A DNA stretch of 64,000 nt, from positions 1-64,000 of the forward strand of contig JACPDI010000057.1 in the NCBI GenBank assembly GCA_016184105.1, written 5' to 3'. Both the position numbers and the translations under genes were made by a program. The notes below the pieces were generated by a model. It did not search any database. It worked only from the letters and a program-made list of their open reading frames with translations, and was not told where the DNA came from. Positions 16,450 through 28,153 of the stretch are shown in pieces (the stretch's first letter is position 1; every line of letters starts with the position of its first letter). This DNA is from Acidobacteriota bacterium. Its GTDB lineage: Bacteria; Acidobacteriota; Vicinamibacteria; Vicinamibacterales; 2-12-FULL-66-21.

Positions 16450-17334
16450 ATGTCCGATCCGATCGACGCGTATCTCGACCACCTGCGCGTGTCGCGGCGG
16501 CTCGCCGGGAACACGCTGGAGAGCTACGCGCGCGACCTGGCGATGCTGGCCCGCTTCGCGCACGAGACCGGGCGCGCGCCCGCCTCGCTCGGACGGCAGG
16601 ATCTCGAGGCGTTCGTCCGCGGCCTGCTGACCGGCGGCCTGGCGCCGCGATCGGTGGCGCGTGCCGTGGCGTGCGTGCGGGGGTTCTACAAGTTCCTCGT
16701 CCTCGACCGGCTGATCGCCGTGGATCCGGCCGCCGACCTCACGGGACCCCGCGCGTGGGCCGCGCTCCCGCGGTACCTCACTGCCGAGGAAGTGGACCGC
16801 CTGATCGCGCAGCCGGACGTGGCCGAGCCGCGGGGATTGCGCGACCGCGCGCTGATCGAAGTGCTGTACGCGACCGGGCTGCGCGTGTCCGAGCTCGTCG
16901 CGCTGCGCGTGCCGGATCTCCATCTCGACGCCGGGTACCTCACCTGCACGGGCAAAGGCAGCAAGCAGCGCGTCGTCCCGCTGGGAGACGAGGCGGTATC
17001 ATGGGTGAGGCGCTATGTCGCTGAAGGGCGGCCGGTGCTGCTCCGGCAGAAGCCCGCCCCCTGGCTGTTCGCCAACGCGCGCGGCGGTCGGCTCACGCGC
17101 GTCGGGTTCTGGAAGATCCTCAAGGCCTACGGCCGCGGCGCGGGCGTCAGCCGCGACCTGAGCCCGCACGTGCTGCGGCATTCCTTTGCGACGCACCTGC
17201 TCGCGCGCGGCGCCGACCTGCGCGCGATTCAGATGATGCTGGGCCACGCCGATCTGTCCACGACGCAGATCTACACGCACGTCCTCGAAGAGCGGCTGCG
17301 GGCCGTCTACGAAAAGTTTCACCCGCGCGCCTGA
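16450..17334 (+). CDS. xerD: Tyrosine recombinase XerC/XerD family
   Basis: A 294-residue Xer recombinase, the usual length. The N-terminal core-binding SAM-like domain (1-95) begins '[26 protein letters not shown]'. The catalytic domain has all six active-site residues: R145 (ATGLRVSE), K169 (GKGSKQR), H240 and R243 ([14 protein letters not shown]), H266 ([12 protein letters not shown]) and the nucleophile Y275. It cuts and rejoins DNA at dif to resolve chromosome dimers. XerD is favoured over XerC by overall pattern, but the two are hard to separate by eye. An upstream start at 16417 is possible. A candidate dif site lies about 5.5 kb away at 22802-22829. Confidence 0.9.
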
Positions 17335-20199: not shown

Positions 20200-20274
20200 G
20201 TGGGACAGTCACACTTTTCCTCCGGAACCTGACGGAAAAGTGTGACTGTCCCACTTATTCTGTCCCACTTATTC
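20194..20274. repeat. 27-bp perfect inverted repeat with partial third copy
   Basis: Arms 20194-20220 and 20234-20260 are exact reverse complements, with a 13-base loop. The left arm begins GAATAAGTGGGACAGTCACA. The 14 bases TGTCCCACTTATTC that end the right arm are repeated directly at 20261-20274. It fills the space between two convergent genes and contributes the stop codon of each. It resembles a REP-type palindrome and probably acts as a bidirectional terminator. Confidence 0.85.
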
Positions 20275-22609
20275 ACGTTCGGACGGTCAGCAGCAGGTAG
20301 ACGGCCCCGGCGCCGAAGAGGAGATTGGGCGCCCACGCGGCGAGCGCGGCCGGCAGCATGCCCGCGCTGCCAATCGCGGCAAAGACGCTCAGCAGCACCC
20401 AGTACAGCATCGCCAGCGCGATCGCGAGCCCGACTCCGTACAGCGCGCCTCGCCGGCCCGTCGTCGCGCCGAACGGGACGGCGATCAGCGTCATCACGAC
20501 CGTGACGAGCGGAAACGCGATCTTCCGTTGCAGCGCCACCAGCAGCGGGACGACGTTGAAGCCGCTGGCGCGGAGATCGCGGACGTGCCGTTGCAGCTCG
20601 GAGTACGTCATCAGCTCGGCGTCCGGCTGCTCGGCCTCGAAGTACTCCGGCGGCTCCACGTTCAGCGCCCGCTCAGCGAACGGCTGCCAGGGCGCGCGCC
20701 CCCCGCCGGGAAACGTCACGTCCCAGCCCGCGCGGCCGGTCCAGTTGCCCCCCGAGAACGCGGCGCGCTCCACGAAGACGTGGCGGGCGAGCCGCCACTG
20801 CTTCTCGTCGAGCGTGTAGAGCGAGAGAGCGAGCAGCTCGCGGCGGTTCGGATCGAAGAGCGCGTAATGGTACACGCGGTTGCCGCGGCCGGCGACCCAC
20901 TGGCGGTTGAGCGCGTTGAAGGTGCGCGGCGTGAAGCCGCGGATGCGCGCGTTCAGCGCGTGCGCGCGGCGGTTGGCGTGCGCCAGCACCCGCTCCTCGA
21001 GCGAGAAGAGCGCCAGGCTGCCGGCCATCGCGACGGCCACAAGCGGCAGCGCGATGCGATAGATCGAGATGCCGCAGGCCTTCATCACGGTCAATTCGCT
21101 CGTCCTGGTGAGCAGCCCGATCGTGACGAGCGCGCCCAGGAGCACCGACAGCGGCACGACGTAGTAGATGTACTGCGGCGTCGAGTACCAGAAGAACTCG
21201 AGGAGCATCGCGCCGGTCGCCTGCTTCTTGAACAGCTTGTCGGACAGGTCAATGAAGGTCGCGATGTAGAAGATGCCCATCATGGCGGCAAAGGCGAGCC
21301 CCGCGACGCGGATGTACATGCGCGCCACGTAGCCGTCGAGCAGGGTGGGCCGCGGATACCAGACCCGGGGAATCTTCAGCACGATGACCACGCGGCCGCG
21401 GCGGGGCTGCGCCGGCGCCGCGGCCGCGAGGGGCGTCTCGCCCGTCTCAGTCTCCGGCGCCGCGGGCGCGCCGCGCAGCCAGGGGATCGAGAGCCCGGCG
21501 TCGGCCCACCGCGCGCGCCAGACGAGGGCCATGATCGCCAGCGGCGCGAGGAGAAGGTTGGGCACCCAGCGCGCGATCGCCGCGGGGAGCATGTGTCCCT
21601 TGGCCATCGACTCGGCCAGGTACATGAGGACGTAGTAGCCGAAGATGACGCCGATTCCGATCACGAACCCCGCGAGCTTGCCGTCCTTGCGCGCGGTCAC
21701 CCCCAGCGCGATCCCGAGCACGCCGAAGATCAGGCACGCGAACGGGATCGAGAACTTCTGCTGGATCTGCATGATCTCGTTGTGCGGCGACAGCCCCTGG
21801 CGCTGCTTGAGCGCAATCTGCTCGCGCAACTCCGCGATGCGCAGCTCGGTGATCCCCTTGGGAGGCGTCGTGGTGGGGAAGACGCTGTTCGGATCGAGCG
21901 AGATGATGAGGTCTCGGCCGTTGAACCGGTACACCTCGTACTCCCCAGGCTTCTCCCCAGGCGCGTAGCGGGCGCCGTCGTGCAGGACGAGTTCGACCCG
22001 GCGGGCGGCGCGATCCAACAGCAGGCGCCCCCTGGAGGCCAGGAAGATCACCGGTCGTCCCGGCGTCGACGTATCGGCCAGGAAAACCTTGCGCCACCCG
22101 GGCTCGGGGGCCGCGCTGTCACGGACGTAGAGCACGCGGTTCGGGAAATCCTCGAAGAACACCCGCGGCTTGACGTCGTTTTCCACGCGCGCCGTAACGA
22201 TGTCGAACGTGATCTCGCGGAACGTCTGGTTCGCGTCCGGGATGCCGACGATGAGCACCCACATCGTGACGCCGGCGGCAACGCCCGATAGCAGCATGAC
22301 CGGCAGCAGGAACCGGTAGAGGCTGACGCCACACGCCAGGACGGCCACCATCTCGCGGTCGCCCGAGAGCCGCCCGAAGGCAATGAGCAGCCCGACGAGC
22401 AGCGCCATCGGAATCGTCAACCCCAGCGCCTGCGGCAGGAGCAGCGCAAGGAGCCGGCCGACCGTCATCCACGGCACCCCCTTGGCGATGAGGCTCTCGG
22501 CCTGGTCCATGATCGGCGGGATCTGGAGGATGAAGGTGAAGACCAGGAGGGCGAGGAAGAACGGGGGCAGGATCTCGCGGATGAGATAGCGGTCGAGGGT
22601 GCGGAACAT
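20273..22609 (-). CDS. Fused LptF-LptG LPS export permease
   Basis: A 778-residue protein made of two YjgP/YjgQ permease units. Unit 1 (1-365) starts 'MFRTLDRYLIREILPPFFLALLVFTFIL', has six membrane helices and a beta-jellyroll periplasmic domain, and closes with 'KDGKLAGFVIGIGVIFGYYVLMYLAESMAKGHMLPAAIARWVPN'. A linker (366-425) with a Pro/Ala/Glu-rich part joins unit 2 (426-778), which repeats the plan from 'LLDGYVARMYIRVAGLAFAAMMGIFYIATFIDLSDKLF' to 'SAGMLPAALAAWAPNLLFGAGAVYLLL'. In E. coli LptF and LptG are separate proteins of about 360 residues that pair with LptB2. The fusion gives a one-chain permease. LptB lies at 40445-41170 and LptC/A at 41171-43290. Confidence 0.93.
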   Translation of the reverse strand: MFRTLDRYLIREILPPFFLALLVFTFILQIPPIMDQAESLIAKGVPWMTVGRLLALLLPQALGLTIPMALLVGLLIAFGRLSGDREMVAVLACGVSLYRFLLPVMLLSGVAAGVTMWVLIVGIPDANQTFREITFDIVTARVENDVKPRVFFEDFPNRVLYVRDSAAPEPGWRKVFLADTSTPGRPVIFLASRGRLLLDRAARRVELVLHDGARYAPGEKPGEYEVYRFNGRDLIISLDPNSVFPTTTPPKGITELRIAELREQIALKQRQGLSPHNEIMQIQQKFSIPFACLIFGVLGIALGVTARKDGKLAGFVIGIGVIFGYYVLMYLAESMAKGHMLPAAIARWVPNLLLAPLAIMALVWRARWADAGLSIPWLRGAPAAPETETGETPLAAAAPAQPRRGRVVIVLKIPRVWYPRPTLLDGYVARMYIRVAGLAFAAMMGIFYIATFIDLSDKLFKKQATGAMLLEFFWYSTPQYIYYVVPLSVLLGALVTIGLLTRTSELTVMKACGISIYRIALPLVAVAMAGSLALFSLEERVLAHANRRAHALNARIRGFTPRTFNALNRQWVAGRGNRVYHYALFDPNRRELLALSLYTLDEKQWRLARHVFVERAAFSGGNWTGRAGWDVTFPGGGRAPWQPFAERALNVEPPEYFEAEQPDAELMTYSELQRHVRDLRASGFNVVPLLVALQRKIAFPLVTVVMTLIAVPFGATTGRRGALYGVGLAIALAMLYWVLLSVFAAIGSAGMLPAALAAWAPNLLFGAGAVYLLLTVRT

Positions 22610-22621
22610 GCGGGACGTGGG

Positions 22622-22740
22622 TTGAGATTAGCACGAAGGGTTCTGCACGGTGGTTCCGCACGAGAGGTTCTGCGCGGTGGTTCTGCGGGAGAGTTCAGCC
22701 GGGGGTTCGGCCGAGAGGGTCTGGCGACGGGTTATGGGGC
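22622..22740. repeat. G-rich direct repeats, 13-14 base period
   Basis: Units of the form GGTTCTGCACGGT, GGTTCCGCACGAGA, GGTTCTGCGCGGT and GGTTCTGCGGGAGA occur in a row, then decay (GTTCAGCCGGG, GGTTCGGCCGAGA, GGGTCTGGCGAC). The period is about twice seven, so the array may be a degenerate form of the heptamer repeats in other spacers. Confidence 0.7.
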
Positions 22741-22801
22741 GGGCGCCTTAGAAAACCACGCACAAAGCTTCCACAGGGCGGTTTATCTAGGCATTTCAAG
22801 T

Positions 22802-22829
22802 GAGTCTGATAAGATATGTTATGTTAACT
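22802..22829. other. Candidate dif site (XerC/XerD recombination site)
   Basis: The 28-base stretch splits into an 11-base left arm GAGTCTGATAA, a six-base centre GATATG, and an 11-base right arm TTATGTTAACT. The right arm differs at one position from the E. coli XerD arm (TTATGTTAAAT) and at one position from the Bacillus arm (TTATGTAAACT). The left arm keeps the inner ATAA but is otherwise divergent. The site is AT-rich inside a GC-rich genome and intergenic. A Xer recombinase is encoded at 16450-17334. Function is inferred from sequence only. Confidence 0.65.
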
Positions 22830-22909
22830 TATAAGGAGGAAGCGGGGCCGCCGCAGCAGCGCAAAGGCATTCCGCGCGCCCGGTGGCTTCGGAGGTTTGG
22901 CAGCGAGAC

Positions 22910-23740
22910 CTACTGCTTGGACGTCCTGAGCTCTTCGATGATCGCGAGCAGCGTGGCGATGACCTCCTCGCGCTCGACCTGGGACTTCTTGAACTGCAGC
23001 TTCAGATTGAAATCCTTCGACGGAGCCCGGTAGTTGAATACGTAGCTGCGCGGCCGGCCCGGCTTGGCTTTCGCGGGCGTGGCAGCCTTTCGGAGTTCCT
23101 CGCGGGTGCTGAGTCCGTCGCGCGTCATCCTTTCTATCAGCGCGACCATTTTCTTGGGATCCGATTGCCTAACTATCTGTAATAGCAATGATTTAGAGTT
23201 GATGTCGGCCAGCCGACAAAGGTTTTTCACCTCGTCGGGCATGTGGTTCAGCGCGAGCGACTCGGTGACCGACGTGCGGGACTTCCCCAGCTTGCGCGCC
23301 AGGTCCTCGTGCGTGTAGCCGCACTTTTCCGCGCGCGCGTGGAGCGCCTCCGCCTCTTCAAACGGCGTGAGGTCCTTGCGCTGGAGGTTCTCGACCAGCG
23401 CAAGCTCGATCACCTCGGTGTCGTCCACGTCGCGCACGACGACGGGCAGTTCGCGCAGGCCGACCTGGATCGCCGCCTGGTAGCGGCGCTCACCCGCAAT
23501 GATCTGGTAGCGACCGCGACGCTGGCGCACGACCAGCGGCTCGATGACTCCCTTCTCGGCGATGGAGGCCATCAGCTCCGACAGATCCCCCATGACCTGC
23601 CGCGGCTGGTGCGGGTTTGGGTCGATCTGGTCGATCGGCGCCATGCGCCCGACCGGCGAGCCCGAGGAGAACGACAGCGCCTCCACGTAGTGCTCGTCGT
23701 GGCGCATTTTCACCGTCGCCGGCAGACCTCGCTTAGGCAC
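22910..23740 (-). CDS. parB: ParB/Spo0J family partition protein
   Basis: A 276-residue protein. It contains the ParB/Srx nucleotide-binding domain with 'IDQIDPNPHQPRQ', 'ELMASIAEKGVIEPLVVRQ' and the CTP-binding 'IIAGERRYQAA' motif. A helix-turn-helix region follows ('GYTHEDLARKLGKSRTSVTESLALNHMPDEV') with a short C-terminal part. The GTG at 23740 was chosen because it overlaps parA by eight bases; the reading to 23800 lies inside parA. Together with ParA it forms a segregation or positioning system. No parS-like TGTTTCACGTGAAACA was spotted nearby, and the neighbours are not those of the origin-linked parAB, so it may position another cargo. A codon-biased AT-rich patch lies at 23160-23205. 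Confidence 0.88.
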   Translation of the reverse strand: MPKRGLPATVKMRHDEHYVEALSFSSGSPVGRMAPIDQIDPNPHQPRQVMGDLSELMASIAEKGVIEPLVVRQRRGRYQIIAGERRYQAAIQVGLRELPVVVRDVDDTEVIELALVENLQRKDLTPFEEAEALHARAEKCGYTHEDLARKLGKSRTSVTESLALNHMPDEVKNLCRLADINSKSLLLQIVRQSDPKKMVALIERMTRDGLSTREELRKAATPAKAKPGRPRSYVFNYRAPSKDFNLKLQFKKSQVEREEVIATLLAIIEELRTSKQ

Positions 23741-24488
23741 GATCCATGACCTCCTCGCACAGCCGGTAATACTCGGTCGCCCCTGACGATTCGGGAGCAA
23801 AACTGAAGATTGATTCCTTGTACGCCGGACTCTCCTCGAGCCGTACGCTCTTGGTGATCACGGTCTTGAACACCTTGCCGCCGAACACCTTGTCGATCTG
23901 CGCTCGGATATCGCGCGCGAGCGCGGTCCGCTTGTCGTGCATCGTGATGACCACTCCGAGGATGCGCAGGCCCGGGTTGGCGCGGGCGCGGACCTTTTCG
24001 ACGGTCTCGAGAAGGTCGTCGGTCCCCTCGAGCGCGAAGTAGGACGACTGGATCGGAATCAACAGATGCGTGGCCGCCACAAGCGCGTTGACGGTCAGCA
24101 GCCCCAGCGCCGGCGGGCAATCAATGACGATGTAAGGGAACTTCTGCCGGATTGGCGCCAGGCGGTCCTTCAAGCGGAAGTGCGCGTCGATCTCCCCCAC
24201 CAGCTTGCTCTCGAGCTTCGCGAGCGCGATCCGAGACGGCGCGATCCACAGGTTGTCCTGCGTGGACCGGTGCATCACGTCGGCGAAGCTGACCTTGTCG
24301 TCCGTGATCGCGTCGTACACGCTCTTGCCGACGACGGCAACGTCGAGGTACGACATCGTGCTGTTGGACTGAGGATCGAGGTCGATGAGCAGCGTCGGCT
24401 TGCCGCGCATGGCCAGGGCCGCCGCAAGGTTGATGGCCGTCGTGGTCTTCCCGACGCCACCTTTCTGGTTGGCAATCGCGACAATCAT
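23733..24488 (-). CDS. parA: ParA family ATPase
   Basis: A 251-residue MinD/ParA ATPase with the deviant Walker A 'KGGVGKTTT' (residues 9-17), Walker A' 'LLIDLDPQSNST' and Walker B 'YIVIDCPPALG'. It binds DNA non-specifically as an ATP dimer and is released by its ParB partner, encoded by the overlapping downstream gene. The length is typical of chromosomal, small ParA proteins without an N-terminal DNA-binding domain. A good sigma-70-type promoter lies upstream at 24564-24591. Confidence 0.93.
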   Translation of the reverse strand: MIVAIANQKGGVGKTTTAINLAAALAMRGKPTLLIDLDPQSNSTMSYLDVAVVGKSVYDAITDDKVSFADVMHRSTQDNLWIAPSRIALAKLESKLVGEIDAHFRLKDRLAPIRQKFPYIVIDCPPALGLLTVNALVAATHLLIPIQSSYFALEGTDDLLETVEKVRARANPGLRILGVVITMHDKRTALARDIRAQIDKVFGGKVFKTVITKSVRLEESPAYKESIFSFAPESSGATEYYRLCEEVMDRA

Positions 24489-24597: not shown

Positions 24598-25086
24598 CTA
24601 CATCTTGTACTTGCCCAGGTCATCCGGATCGAGGCTTTCGAGCCAGCGCTGAAGCCGTTCCGTGTCCGATTTGTCGGGGGCGATCTCCTGGGTCTTCGCG
24701 TTGTCGATGACCGCCTCCTCGACAAAAATCGGGGCCTTGGTCCTGAGCGCCAGCGCGATCGCATCGCTCGGGCGGGCGTCCACCGCGACGATGCCCTCGG
24801 CGCCGGCCTCGAGGTAAATCAGCGCGTAGAAAGTGTTCTCCTTCAGCTCCGACACGACGATCTTCCGGACGGTGGCCTTCAGGTCCTCGATGACGTTCTT
24901 CAGAAGGTCGTGGGTCATTGGCCGCGGCGTCGTCACGTTCTCGATTTGCAGCGCGATCGCGTTCGCCTCGAACACTCCCACCCAGATAGGCAGGACGCGC
25001 TGCCCGTCCTTGTCGCGCAGGATGATGATCGGCATGTTGGTGATGGGATCGACCATCAGCCCCTTGATCGACATGTCAATCTGCAT
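24598..25086 (-). CDS. Bifunctional nuclease domain protein (DUF151)
   Basis: A 162-residue protein of the DUF151/bifunctional nuclease family. Visible motifs are 'PIIILRDKDGQRVLPIWVGVFEANAIALQIEN', 'RPMTHDLLKNVIEDL' and 'VDARPSDAIALALRTKAPIFVEEAVID', which make up the conserved core. Plant and bacterial relatives show DNase/RNase activity or act in stress responses; the role here is unknown. The start overlaps the end of miaB by 11 bases, so translation is probably coupled. Confidence 0.88.
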   Translation of the reverse strand: MQIDMSIKGLMVDPITNMPIIILRDKDGQRVLPIWVGVFEANAIALQIENVTTPRPMTHDLLKNVIEDLKATVRKIVVSELKENTFYALIYLEAGAEGIVAVDARPSDAIALALRTKAPIFVEEAVIDNAKTQEIAPDKSDTERLQRWLESLDPDDLGKYKM

Positions 25087-26470
25087 GAGAACCTGCCTGA
25101 CCGCGTAGGCTGTTCGGCCCCGCCTCCGTGATGGTCACCTGCACCGTCCGCCCGACCCACTCGGCCGGTTCGGTGGCCGGCGCGGGCAGCGGGAAATTAA
25201 CAACCGTGTTCCCCGTCGTCCGGCCGGAAAGCTCCCAGCGGCGCTTGCGGCTCGTCGCGTCGACCAGTACCTCGAAGGACCGTCCAACCGCAGCCTCGTG
25301 CAGCTCGATCTGGATCCGTTTCTGGAGCCCCTGGAGGATCGACAGCCGTTCGCTCTTGGTGCTCTCGCTGACGTCATCGGGCAACCGCTTCTCCGCCAGC
25401 GTGTTCGGCCGCGACGAGTACTTGAACGAGAACATGCTGTGGAAGCGCACCGCCTCGACGAGCGAAAGCGTTTCCGCAAAGTCCGGCCCGGTTTCACCCG
25501 GGAACCCGACGATCATATCGGTCGAAAGCGCGATGTCCGGCACCGCCTCCCTGACGCGGCGAACCAGGTCCAGGTAGCTGTCGCGCGTATAGCGACGCCG
25601 CATGGCTTTCAGAATCGACGAAGAGCCTGACTGCACCGGCAGGTGCAGGTGCTTGCAGACCTGCGGGATGTCGCGTACTGCTTCGATGAGACGCGGCCCG
25701 ACATGCCGCGGATGCGGGCTCGCAAACCGGATGCGCTCGACCCCGGGCACCCGGCTCACACGTTCCAGGAGCTCGGCGAAATCGCACGCGGCATCGTCCG
25801 GCGCCTGGTAGTGGTTCACGATCTGTCCGAGCAGCTGGATTTCCTTCCGCCCCGAGTCCGCCGCCTCCCGGACCTCCGCGACGATTTCCGCAACGGGTCG
25901 CATGCGCTCGTGCCCCCGCGTGTACGGCACCACGCAGAAGGCGCAGAAGTCGTTGCACCCTTCGACGATCGTCACGTACGCCTTTACCGGGTCTCCCCGG
26001 CGCGTGAGGCCCAGCGGAAACGAGACGTCCTCGTGGGGGTTGATGTCGATGTAAAAGGGGTCGGGAGCCTTTTTCGCCGATGCAGGCCCGAAAAAGGCTC
26101 CCGACCCCTTTTTCTCGGCCCGCTCCACCAGCATGGGAAGCATCTTCAGGCTTTGCGTGCCCACGATAACGTCGATGTCGCGCGAGCGCTTGCGAAGCGC
26201 GGGCCCTTCCTGCTGCGCCACGCAGCCGGTGACCGCCAGCACGGGCCTGCGCCCCACTTCGGCGGCCTTCACGCGCAGTTCCCCCAGGCGCGAATAGAGC
26301 TTGTCCTCGGCGCGCTCGCGCACGCTGCAGGTGTTGAGCACGACCAGATCTGCTTCCTGCGACTCCTCCGTCGCTTCGTAGCCCGCCTGCTCCAACAGGC
26401 CGGCCATACGCTCGGAGTCGTGGAAGTTCATCTGGCAGCCGAACGTCTCGATCAGGTATTTCTTGGTCAA
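25076..26470 (-). CDS. miaB: tRNA-2-methylthio-N6-dimethylallyladenosine synthase
   Basis: A 464-residue radical-SAM methylthiotransferase that modifies A37 of tRNAs reading UNN codons. The N-terminal UPF0004 domain has cluster cysteines C12, C48 and C83. The radical-SAM CxxxCxxC is C172-C176-C179 (GCNDFCAFCVVPYTRG). A TRAM domain ends the protein. The usual LLGQNVNSY motif reads LLGQIVNHY here. Residues 120-140, between the two catalytic domains, are encoded by a 60-bp palindrome (26053-26112) that adds about 20 residues relative to what I expect of relatives. The reading frame is kept, so the enzyme may still work. It overlaps the DUF151 gene downstream. Confidence 0.95.
   Translation of the reverse strand: MTKKYLIETFGCQMNFHDSERMAGLLEQAGYEATEESQEADLVVLNTCSVRERAEDKLYSRLGELRVKAAEVGRRPVLAVTGCVAQQEGPALRKRSRDIDVIVGTQSLKMLPMLVERAEKKGSGAFFGPASAKKAPDPFYIDINPHEDVSFPLGLTRRGDPVKAYVTIVEGCNDFCAFCVVPYTRGHERMRPVAEIVAEVREAADSGRKEIQLLGQIVNHYQAPDDAACDFAELLERVSRVPGVERIRFASPHPRHVGPRLIEAVRDIPQVCKHLHLPVQSGSSSILKAMRRRYTRDSYLDLVRRVREAVPDIALSTDMIVGFPGETGPDFAETLSLVEAVRFHSMFSFKYSSRPNTLAEKRLPDDVSESTKSERLSILQGLQKRIQIELHEAAVGRSFEVLVDATSRKRRWELSGRTTGNTVVNFPLPAPATEPAEWVGRTVQVTITEAGPNSLRGQAGSHAD
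26053..26112. repeat. 60-bp palindromic element inserted in frame in miaB
   Basis: Arms 26053-26076 and 26089-26112 are exact 24-base reverse complements around the 12-base loop CCGATGCAGGCC. The left arm starts AAAAGGGGTCGGGAGCCTTT. Sixty bases equal 20 codons, so the miaB frame is preserved. It resembles REP-type or Rickettsia-palindromic-element-like inserts rather than coding sequence. Confidence 0.85.
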
Positions 26471-26497
26471 AATCGTATAAATTCGTCTAAAGTCGAC

Positions 26498-28153
26498 TTA
26501 CCGGTTCTTTCGCCTGGGTGCGCCGGCGTCCTGGCGCGCGCTGAGCAGCGCCTTCGCCGAGGCGAGGACCGCCGATCCAATGTCGGTGCCGCCAATCATT
26601 CGCGCAAGCTCTGCCTCGCGATCCGGCCCGCTGACTTCCTCGACGGTGGTGATTGTACGGCCGCTCTTCACGCCTTTTTCAATCACGTAATGGGACGTGC
26701 CGTAGGCGGCAATCTGGGGCAGGTGCGTGATGCACAGCACCTGGTAGCGGTCGGCGAGCCCGCGCAGCCTCGCGCCCACGATATCCGCCACTGCCCCGCC
26801 GATCCCCGCGTCCACCTCGTCGAAGACGAGGGTCTTGCCGGGGGCATCGGTCGCCGCCAGGTTCTTCAGCGCGAGCATGACGCGTGACAGCTCGCCGCCG
26901 GATGCGATGCGCGCGAGCGGCCTGACGTCCTCGCCGGGATTCGGCGACAGGTAGAACTCGCCGCTGTCGAAGCCGCGCTCCGTCCACGCCTCTTCCGACT
27001 GGCTCGCGTTCAGCCGCAGCTCGCAGCGCGTGCGCGGCATCGCGAGCTCCCCCAGCGCCTTTTCGATCGCGCGGCAGAGCCGTTCGCCGTGAGCGTGCCG
27101 CGCGCGCGACAGCGTGGTGGCCGCGGTCACGTAGCGCTCGCGCGCGGCGGCCAGCTCCGCCTCGAGCGTCGCCGCGCGGTCTGCGGATGTTTCCATCAGC
27201 TCCCGTTCGCGGGCGAGCGCGCGCCTCCTCTCGATGACTTCCTGGAGCGATCCGCCGTGCTTCTTCTTCAGGCGCTCGAGCGTGGCGAGGCGATCCTCGA
27301 CCTCCTGGAGGCGTTCCGGCGAGGCATCGATGTCCGCCGAGTACGACCGCAGGAAGTACGCGAGATCCTCCAGCTGCGACTTGATCCCGTCACGCGCGTC
27401 GACGTAGGGCTGGAACGTCGGATCGAGCGCGGCGAGTTCGGCCACCTTCTTCCATGCCGCCGCGAGCGCTGCGAGCGCCGCGTGCTCCCCTTCGTACAGC
27501 GCGTCGTACGCGTCGGCGCACAAGCGGCTCAACCTGTCGGCGTTGGCGAGCACGTGGCGGGCGGCGGCCAGCTGCTCGTCTTCGCCTGGCAGCGGGGCGA
27601 CCTTCTCGATCTCGCCGAGCTGGAACGTGATGAGGTCCAGCCTCGACGCCTTGTCCCGTTCCGCGCGCCGCAGTTCCTCCACCAGGCCGCGCACGCGCGT
27701 CCACCCCGCGAACGCGTCGGCGACAGCCGCGCGCTCGATGTGCAGCTTCGCGTGCTCGTCCACGACCTCGAGGTGCGTGGCCGGATCGAGCAGGCGCTGG
27801 TGCTCGTGCTGGCCGTGGAGATCGACGAGACCGCCGCACTGCTCGCGCAGCGCCGCCGTCGTGCAGAGCGCATCGTCGATGAACGCGCGGCTGCGTCCCT
27901 GGGCCGAGATCTCGCGGCGCACGACGAGCTCCCTGCCGTCGCCGGGCTCGAACACCGCCTGGATCGTGGCGGTCTCTTCGCCGGTGCGCACCAGGTCAGG
28001 CGACGCCCGGCCGCCAATCAGCAGTCCGACGGCTTCGACGAGCATGGACTTGCCCGCGCCCGTCTCGCCTGTCAGGACGTTGAAGCCGGAGCCGAATTCC
28101 ACTTCGAGGGCGTCGATGACGGCCAGCCGGCGGATGGCCAGGAACCGCAGCAT
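26498..28153 (-). CDS. recN: DNA repair protein RecN
   Basis: A 551-residue SMC-like ATPase involved in double-strand-break repair. Walker A 'GETGAGKS' is at 29-36. Long coiled-coil arms fill the centre. The C-terminal half has the ABC-type signature 'ASGGELSRVMLALK' and Walker B 'LVFDEVDAGIGG', followed by 'VLCITHLPQIAAYG'. Length and motif order match RecN closely. The start is the ATG at 28153; the gene is divergent from tolQ, with a 74-bp spacer, and 27 bp separate it from miaB. Confidence 0.96.
   Translation of the reverse strand: MLRFLAIRRLAVIDALEVEFGSGFNVLTGETGAGKSMLVEAVGLLIGGRASPDLVRTGEETATIQAVFEPGDGRELVVRREISAQGRSRAFIDDALCTTAALREQCGGLVDLHGQHEHQRLLDPATHLEVVDEHAKLHIERAAVADAFAGWTRVRGLVEELRRAERDKASRLDLITFQLGEIEKVAPLPGEDEQLAAARHVLANADRLSRLCADAYDALYEGEHAALAALAAAWKKVAELAALDPTFQPYVDARDGIKSQLEDLAYFLRSYSADIDASPERLQEVEDRLATLERLKKKHGGSLQEVIERRRALARERELMETSADRAATLEAELAAARERYVTAATTLSRARHAHGERLCRAIEKALGELAMPRTRCELRLNASQSEEAWTERGFDSGEFYLSPNPGEDVRPLARIASGGELSRVMLALKNLAATDAPGKTLVFDEVDAGIGGAVADIVGARLRGLADRYQVLCITHLPQIAAYGTSHYVIEKGVKSGRTITTVEEVSGPDREAELARMIGGTDIGSAVLASAKALLSARQDAGAPRRKNR

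Follow-up and report, generated by a model that had tools for sequence, protein, structure and literature searches.

A probable dif site beside a second parA-parB pair and a conserved palindrome in Vicinamibacterales

The dif-like site and its surroundings

The DNA analysed is a stretch of 64 kb (the window) from an acidobacterium of the order Vicinamibacterales. On the forward strand, between parB (end at 22910, minus strand) and an ORF for fused LptF and LptG (start at 22609, minus strand), it contains the 28-mer GAGTCTGATAAGATATGTTATGTTAACT (Table 1). The 28-mer has the layout of a XerCD dif site, i.e., 28 bp divided into 11+6+11 with conserved arms, including the inner ATAA/TTAT symmetry. 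It is the sole match at up to three mismatches in the window (expectation from shuffling, 0) and also in the whole 4.24-Mb assembly, as demanded of a single-copy site. For comparison, generally known consensus sequences were used for E. coli dif, KOPS and parS. The coordinates, the arms and the inner symmetry had already been given in a preliminary description of the window, and all three held.

Table 1. Positions of the features around the predicted dif site, in window coordinates
Feature	Position	Strand	Remarks
Predicted dif	22802..22829	+	single in genome; order-wide consensus; near-invariant ATAA and TTATG; skew switch
XerC arm of dif	22802-22812	+	
Central 6 bp of dif	22813-22818	+	
XerD arm of dif	22819-22829	+	
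Accessory box CRCARnnnnnTnMACAGG	22761..22777	+	XerC side of dif, at fixed distance
Terminus parB	22910..23707 (open frame to 23800)	-	probable ATG start 23707; ParB_N, HTH_ParB, TIGR00180; specificity residues R-S-H-K
Palindrome TGTCGGCCAGCCGACA	23203..23218		inside parB, 373 bp from dif; candidate parS
Terminus parA	23733..24488	-	Soj-type ATPase; AAA_31 6e-55
Bifunctional nuclease domain protein, miaB, recN	24598..28153	-	upstream of parA
lptF-lptG fusion ORF	20273..22609	-	other side of dif from parB; TIGR04407, TIGR04408
xerD	16450..17334	+	TIGR02225, 358 bits (cut-off 330); about 5.5 kb from dif

Next to dif, an alignment of 75 distinct sites revealed a further conserved stretch (columns -41 to -24 relative to dif), the T.MACAG of which lies 32 bp from the left end of dif. 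The offset between this box and dif is 31-32 in most loci of the order, and the box is nearly missing from background DNA (2 matches per 2.16 million strand-bases). A possible reading is that an accessory factor, still unidentified, acts here on dif; E. coli dif is known to need no such factor. Two other readings of the box were discarded. That it serves lptF was rejected because its spacing to dif is constant whereas the distance from dif to lptF varies from 78 to 564 bp, and the reading of CCACAGG as a DnaA box was not adopted, since the first two T are unconserved and CATCAACAGG variants break the consensus. An Rfam search of window positions 22400-23000 gave no match.

Conservation of the probable dif site and its place on the chromosome

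The consensus of the site in the order is GNGTCYGATAA-N6-TTATGTTAACT. The consensus of the arms, GTCYGATAA-N6-TTATGTTAACT, was matched at up to three mismatches in 56 of 60 relatives, and the dif consensus was found at up to two mismatches in 122 of 162 Vicinamibacterales genomes, mostly as one copy per genome; a reversed-pattern control had no match in any of the 162. About a quarter of the order genomes thus have no site at this threshold, and many of the assemblies are incomplete. Among the 75 aligned sites ATAA and TTATG are nearly invariant, positions T4, C5, A8, A10, A11, T18, T19, T21 and G22 (numbered from 1) are fully so, and the central six bases are variable. The XerD arm has diverged in part of one lineage (f11). 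In other classes of Acidobacteriota the left arm is often GTCGCATAA, and dif is closer to the E. coli version.

The cumulative GC skew of the window climbs to a maximum at 22-25 kb and then drops, a switch from positive to negative that is typical of a terminus. The assembly consists of 69 contigs, and therefore the terminus position was shown on the chromosomes of relatives. In the complete genomes G014 (7,480,314 bp) and G027 (6,468,984 bp) the skew was taken from 20-kb samples, not continuously, and it is weak (about 0.01); it is mostly positive before dif and mostly negative after it. The sampled interval that best marks the change is 4237001-4257001 in G014 (dif at 4257083) and 3100001-3120001 in G027, the one next to dif at 3131171. 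The switch lies between 1.82 and 2.0 Mb in G262 (dif at 1.914 Mb) and between 1.37 and 1.44 Mb in G313, where the orthologue of the dif-side parB is at 1.483 Mb. In G216 it is found at 620-750 kb, within about 70-200 kb of dif (816 kb), and the switch in the other direction is at 3.6-4.0 Mb. In the complete genomes sampled, dif is thus located at or near the switch from positive to negative skew, as a terminus site should be.

The machinery that would act on such a site is also encoded. The Xer gene of the window scores above the cut-off of TIGR02225 and below that of TIGR02224, and it is thus xerD; its orthologues are likewise about 5.5 kb from dif in G014 (4251390) and G027 (3125641). A second Xer is encoded elsewhere in the genome, away from dif, and was taken as XerC by similarity only. 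The FtsK_gamma domain was present in all five genomes tested, so that XerC, XerD and FtsK-gamma are all accounted for. An unbiased search for octamers that might act as KOPS gave mostly codon-like words, and the KOPS-like octamer GGGNAGGG was then tested directly. In sampled stretches of G014 and G027 it points toward dif 106 times and away from it 53 times, and its polarity ranks 7 among 8189 gapped octamers. As far as samples of two genomes can tell, polar KOPS-like motifs converge on dif.

By sequence, the 28-mer is almost certainly dif, and taken as a whole it is very probably the chromosomal dif site; Xer binding and recombination are inferred. The preliminary description had proposed it as the dimer resolution site, with the terminus placed here, and had named uniqueness, conservation in relatives and a position at the GC-skew switch as checks. 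All three checks were passed, the first in window and assembly, the second at the frequencies given above, the third in the window and in the sampled relatives, so that the proposal is supported as far as sequence comparison reaches. The Xer recombinase noted at a distance of 5.5 kb held as well and is XerD. The weakness of the left arm, the main doubt raised, no longer counts, because G-N-GTC-Y-G-ATAA is conserved across the lineage, and the left arm is thus its normal XerC arm.

A second parA-parB pair and an associated palindrome

One operon at dif encodes a ParA ATPase and a ParB that has ParB_N and HTH domains, the gene content that defines ParABS. Two kinds of ParB coexist in these genomes, an origin-type protein and the dif-side protein (ter-ParB). 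In G000 the origin parB (C12:82241) is found beside parA and an rsmG-like gene and is accompanied by a parS with one mismatch, and in G014, G027 and G050 perfect canonical parS sites occur near the origin parB only. At up to three mismatches canonical parS is absent from the 64-kb window. The dif-side pair does not fulfil the definition of a canonical origin-linked ParABS and is a distinct, terminus-linked pair. The parA-parB pair that had been noted beside dif, with the remark that such pairs are usually origin-linked in other bacteria, is confirmed; it has to be added as a correction that this is not the usual pair in a displaced position, the origin pair being separate.

Orthologues of ter-ParB were found in 112 of 199 sampled genomes of the phylum (E<=1e-50); the gene is not universal, as nearly half of these genomes lack it at this threshold. 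Within the order, dif lies 3' of one orthologous parB. Outside the order, 105 genomes have a dif-like site and 63 of them have both this site and ter-parB; dif is within 2 kb of the 3' end of ter-parB in 53 of the 63, and on its 3' side in all 58 pairs that share a contig. The remaining 42 of the 105 have a dif-like site without a ter-parB match, which shows that dif is independent of ter-parB. It is very likely that an old terminus module couples dif with a second parA-parB pair across Acidobacteriota. In the family f55 (G244, G262, G270, G286 and G308), dif adjoins parB in the opposite relative orientation.

The roles of the residues at the specificity positions of ParB have been described, and parS-binding ParBs have G at position 201 (PMC7383237). 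This position, which was mapped by eye from a pairwise alignment, is K or R in 84 of 84 ter-ParBs and G in the origin ParB of the window's genome; R173 is retained in ter-ParBs. The replacement of G by K/R at a position that governs parS specificity fits an altered DNA specificity of ter-ParB.

A candidate for the corresponding site is the palindrome within parB, the full form of which, at 23203-23218, is TGTCGGCnnGCCGACA. A search for enriched palindromes recovered its 12-bp core TGTCGG-N4-CCGACA in 47 of 59 ter-parB loci, compared with 0.19 expected. Twelve genomes were searched for exact copies, which were present in ten genomes of the order and in G216, all within about 5.2 kb of dif, and absent from G262. 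In the phylum an exact copy occurs in 85 of 199 genomes and the reversed control in 3. Outside the order 75 exact copies were listed, 53 of them within 2 kb of ter-parB (20 inside parB and 33 beyond the limits of the parB match); ter-parB is present in 57 of the 59 genomes with a listed copy. A second copy stands beside xerD in G027.

Inside parB the palindrome is under constraint at synonymous sites: its five codons TGT CGG CTG GCC GAC are the most conserved 5-codon window of 262 at the level of codons. The Arg codon of the palindrome is CGG in 98%, while at the other conserved Arg columns the most frequent codon reaches 31-60%, and the Cys codon is TGT in 93%. The palindrome codons are lost in G026 and G031, and these genomes have exact copies outside the parB match (C3:30799 and C18:726361, respectively).

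The association of the palindrome with ter-parB is strong, and it is proposed to serve a terminus-specific ParABS as its parS; that ParB binds it is an inference, there being no binding data. Loci of the family f44 carry two to four copies over tens of kb around ter-parB, resembling a parS cluster (G251, C1 1260076-1313240; G220, C60 54923-103174; G209, C116). In the family f55 the palindrome is not near dif-parB, and this lineage may possibly have changed its palindrome site.

Alternative explanations, a proposed terminus module and related systems

The 28-mer stands beside parB across the phylum, so it could serve the adjacent parAB as centromere or operator and not be a Xer site. This is very unlikely: only 63 of the 105 non-order genomes with the site have a ter-parB match, the 28-mer has the anatomy and arms of dif and is not a simple palindrome, it marks the skew switch, and the separate palindrome suits a ParB site much better. 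A mobile element or phage that uses Xer could also have left the 28-mer as an attachment site or relic, with the true dif elsewhere, but this is very unlikely as well. Viral contigs contain the exact consensus in at least 120 stretches, and a few relatives have multi-copy dif-like repeats, both of which would fit this view. Against it, the site is single-copy, its neighbour is the same parB in nearly all genomes, and the window contains no duplicated flanking copy of the 28-mer.

The palindrome, for its part, could regulate parAB or neighbouring genes as a local operator, in which case the pair would be no more than a regulated operon of the ordinary sort, situated at the terminus. Several AT-rich lineages have the palindrome about 870-1000 bp upstream of parB, which would agree with the promoter region of parA. 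Nevertheless, the operator reading is unlikely, because the place of the palindrome varies from inside parB to just downstream, upstream of parA and, with several copies in f44, up to about 40 kb away; the extra copy by xerD in G027 also argues against a local operator, and the 16-bp TGT...ACA layout together with K/R201 fits a ParB site. It could also be conserved merely because the protein sequence CRLADI is conserved, as it falls in the CRLADI codon run in most genomes of the order. This explanation is all but excluded: its codon choice is the most constrained of the 262 windows, the two loci with changed codons (L109 and L111 of G026 and G031) are matched by an exact copy outside the parB match, and 33 non-order copies are within 2 kb yet outside the parB match.

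The explanation that very probably accounts for these observations is thus that the 28-mer is dif within a terminus module that includes the second parA-parB pair and the palindrome. The site, its position, its partners, its conservation, the palindrome and the association of the palindrome with ParB are established by the sequences compared. In this view, XerC would bind the left arm of dif and XerD the right arm, and FtsK, led by KOPS-like octamers, would activate XerD at division, so that chromosome dimers would be turned into monomers. A dedicated 16-bp centromere, the palindrome, would stand at a distance from dif of between a few hundred bases and a few kb; ter-ParB would load there as a CTP clamp, spread over the dif neighbourhood and, with ParA and perhaps SMC, position or separate the sister termini at the place of Xer and FtsK action. 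Recombination by Xer, the binding and spreading of ParB and its role at the terminus are all inferred, in the absence of binding or recombination data.

A bolder reading, which we favour only by a small margin, is that Acidobacteriota chromosomes have two ParABS systems with different centromeres, one for the origin and one for the terminus, and that the latter, with TGTCGGCnnGCCGACA as its parS and in physical coupling to dif, positions or separates sister termini for resolution by XerCD-FtsK. To our knowledge, no chromosomal ParABS is known to have this role. Chromosomal ParABS systems have been described as machines for origin segregation; if the reading is true, partition systems are not confined to the origin but can also serve the terminus, and dimer resolution would be linked to the active positioning of DNA in a phylum that is among the most abundant in soil. 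With dif and the palindrome, the analysis provides two DNA sites that can be tested directly, and ter-ParB would represent a natural case of a change of ParB specificity at a known residue.

Sites of the dif type have been predicted across bacteria, three Acidobacteria included (PMC3025954). A literature search, confined to open-licence papers, found none that describes a dif site adjacent to parAB or a ParABS specific to the terminus. With the XerCD-dif system of the E. coli type the present one shares the 28 bp in 11+6+11 layout, the TTATGT core of the XerD arm, the ATAA/TTAT symmetry, the skew switch, XerC, XerD and FtsK-gamma; it differs in the XerC arm (GTCYG-ATAA), in the fixed neighbour parB and, in this order, in the extra box at constant offset on the XerC side. 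The parA-parB pair, the ParB_N and HTH_ParB domains and a 16-bp TGT...ACA palindrome in or near parB are shared with chromosomal ParABS (Spo0J-Soj-parS), for which the canonical parS is known to be TGTTCCACGTGGAACA. In contrast to that system, the pair described here lies at the terminus and not at the origin and coexists with an ordinary origin ParABS, its proposed site is TGTCGGCnnGCCGACA in place of TGTTYCACGTGRAACA, and position 201 is K/R.

Noc-NBS of Bacillus is similar in that a ParB paralogue with a basic residue at 201 has its own 16-bp site. However, ter-ParB does not meet the NCBIfam model of Noc (TIGR04285, 154.8 bits with a cut-off of 315), it keeps Arg at 173 where Noc has Gln, and it is paired with ParA and located at dif. 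MatP-matS of Enterobacteria is known as a system dedicated to the terminus, as the present one would be, but MatP is an unrelated protein and matS is spread over hundreds of kb, in contrast to the one to few sites near dif found here.

Multi-copy dif-like sequences, which do not occur in the window's own genome, were observed in G032, G057 and G019, in direct orientation and at spacings of 1.6-7.7 kb, with a conserved stretch after each copy. Those of G032 are at 2773 and 6276 of L098, 2240 and 6553 of L099, and 56 and 7714 of L100; the others are on L101 (G057) and on L102 and L103 (G019). The conserved stretch of G032 ends in a partial inverted repeat, GTCTGATAGGGCGTATTATGTCAACCgaacacccacgtaatacggactatcggc, which is present in 12 copies. 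Mobile palindromic elements are one possible identity of these repeats, Xer/integron-like modules another. The viral stretches with the exact dif consensus are from IMG/VR contigs (e.g., L264-L343), their number of 120 being a lower bound, and their carriers might be phages that integrate by means of the host Xer.
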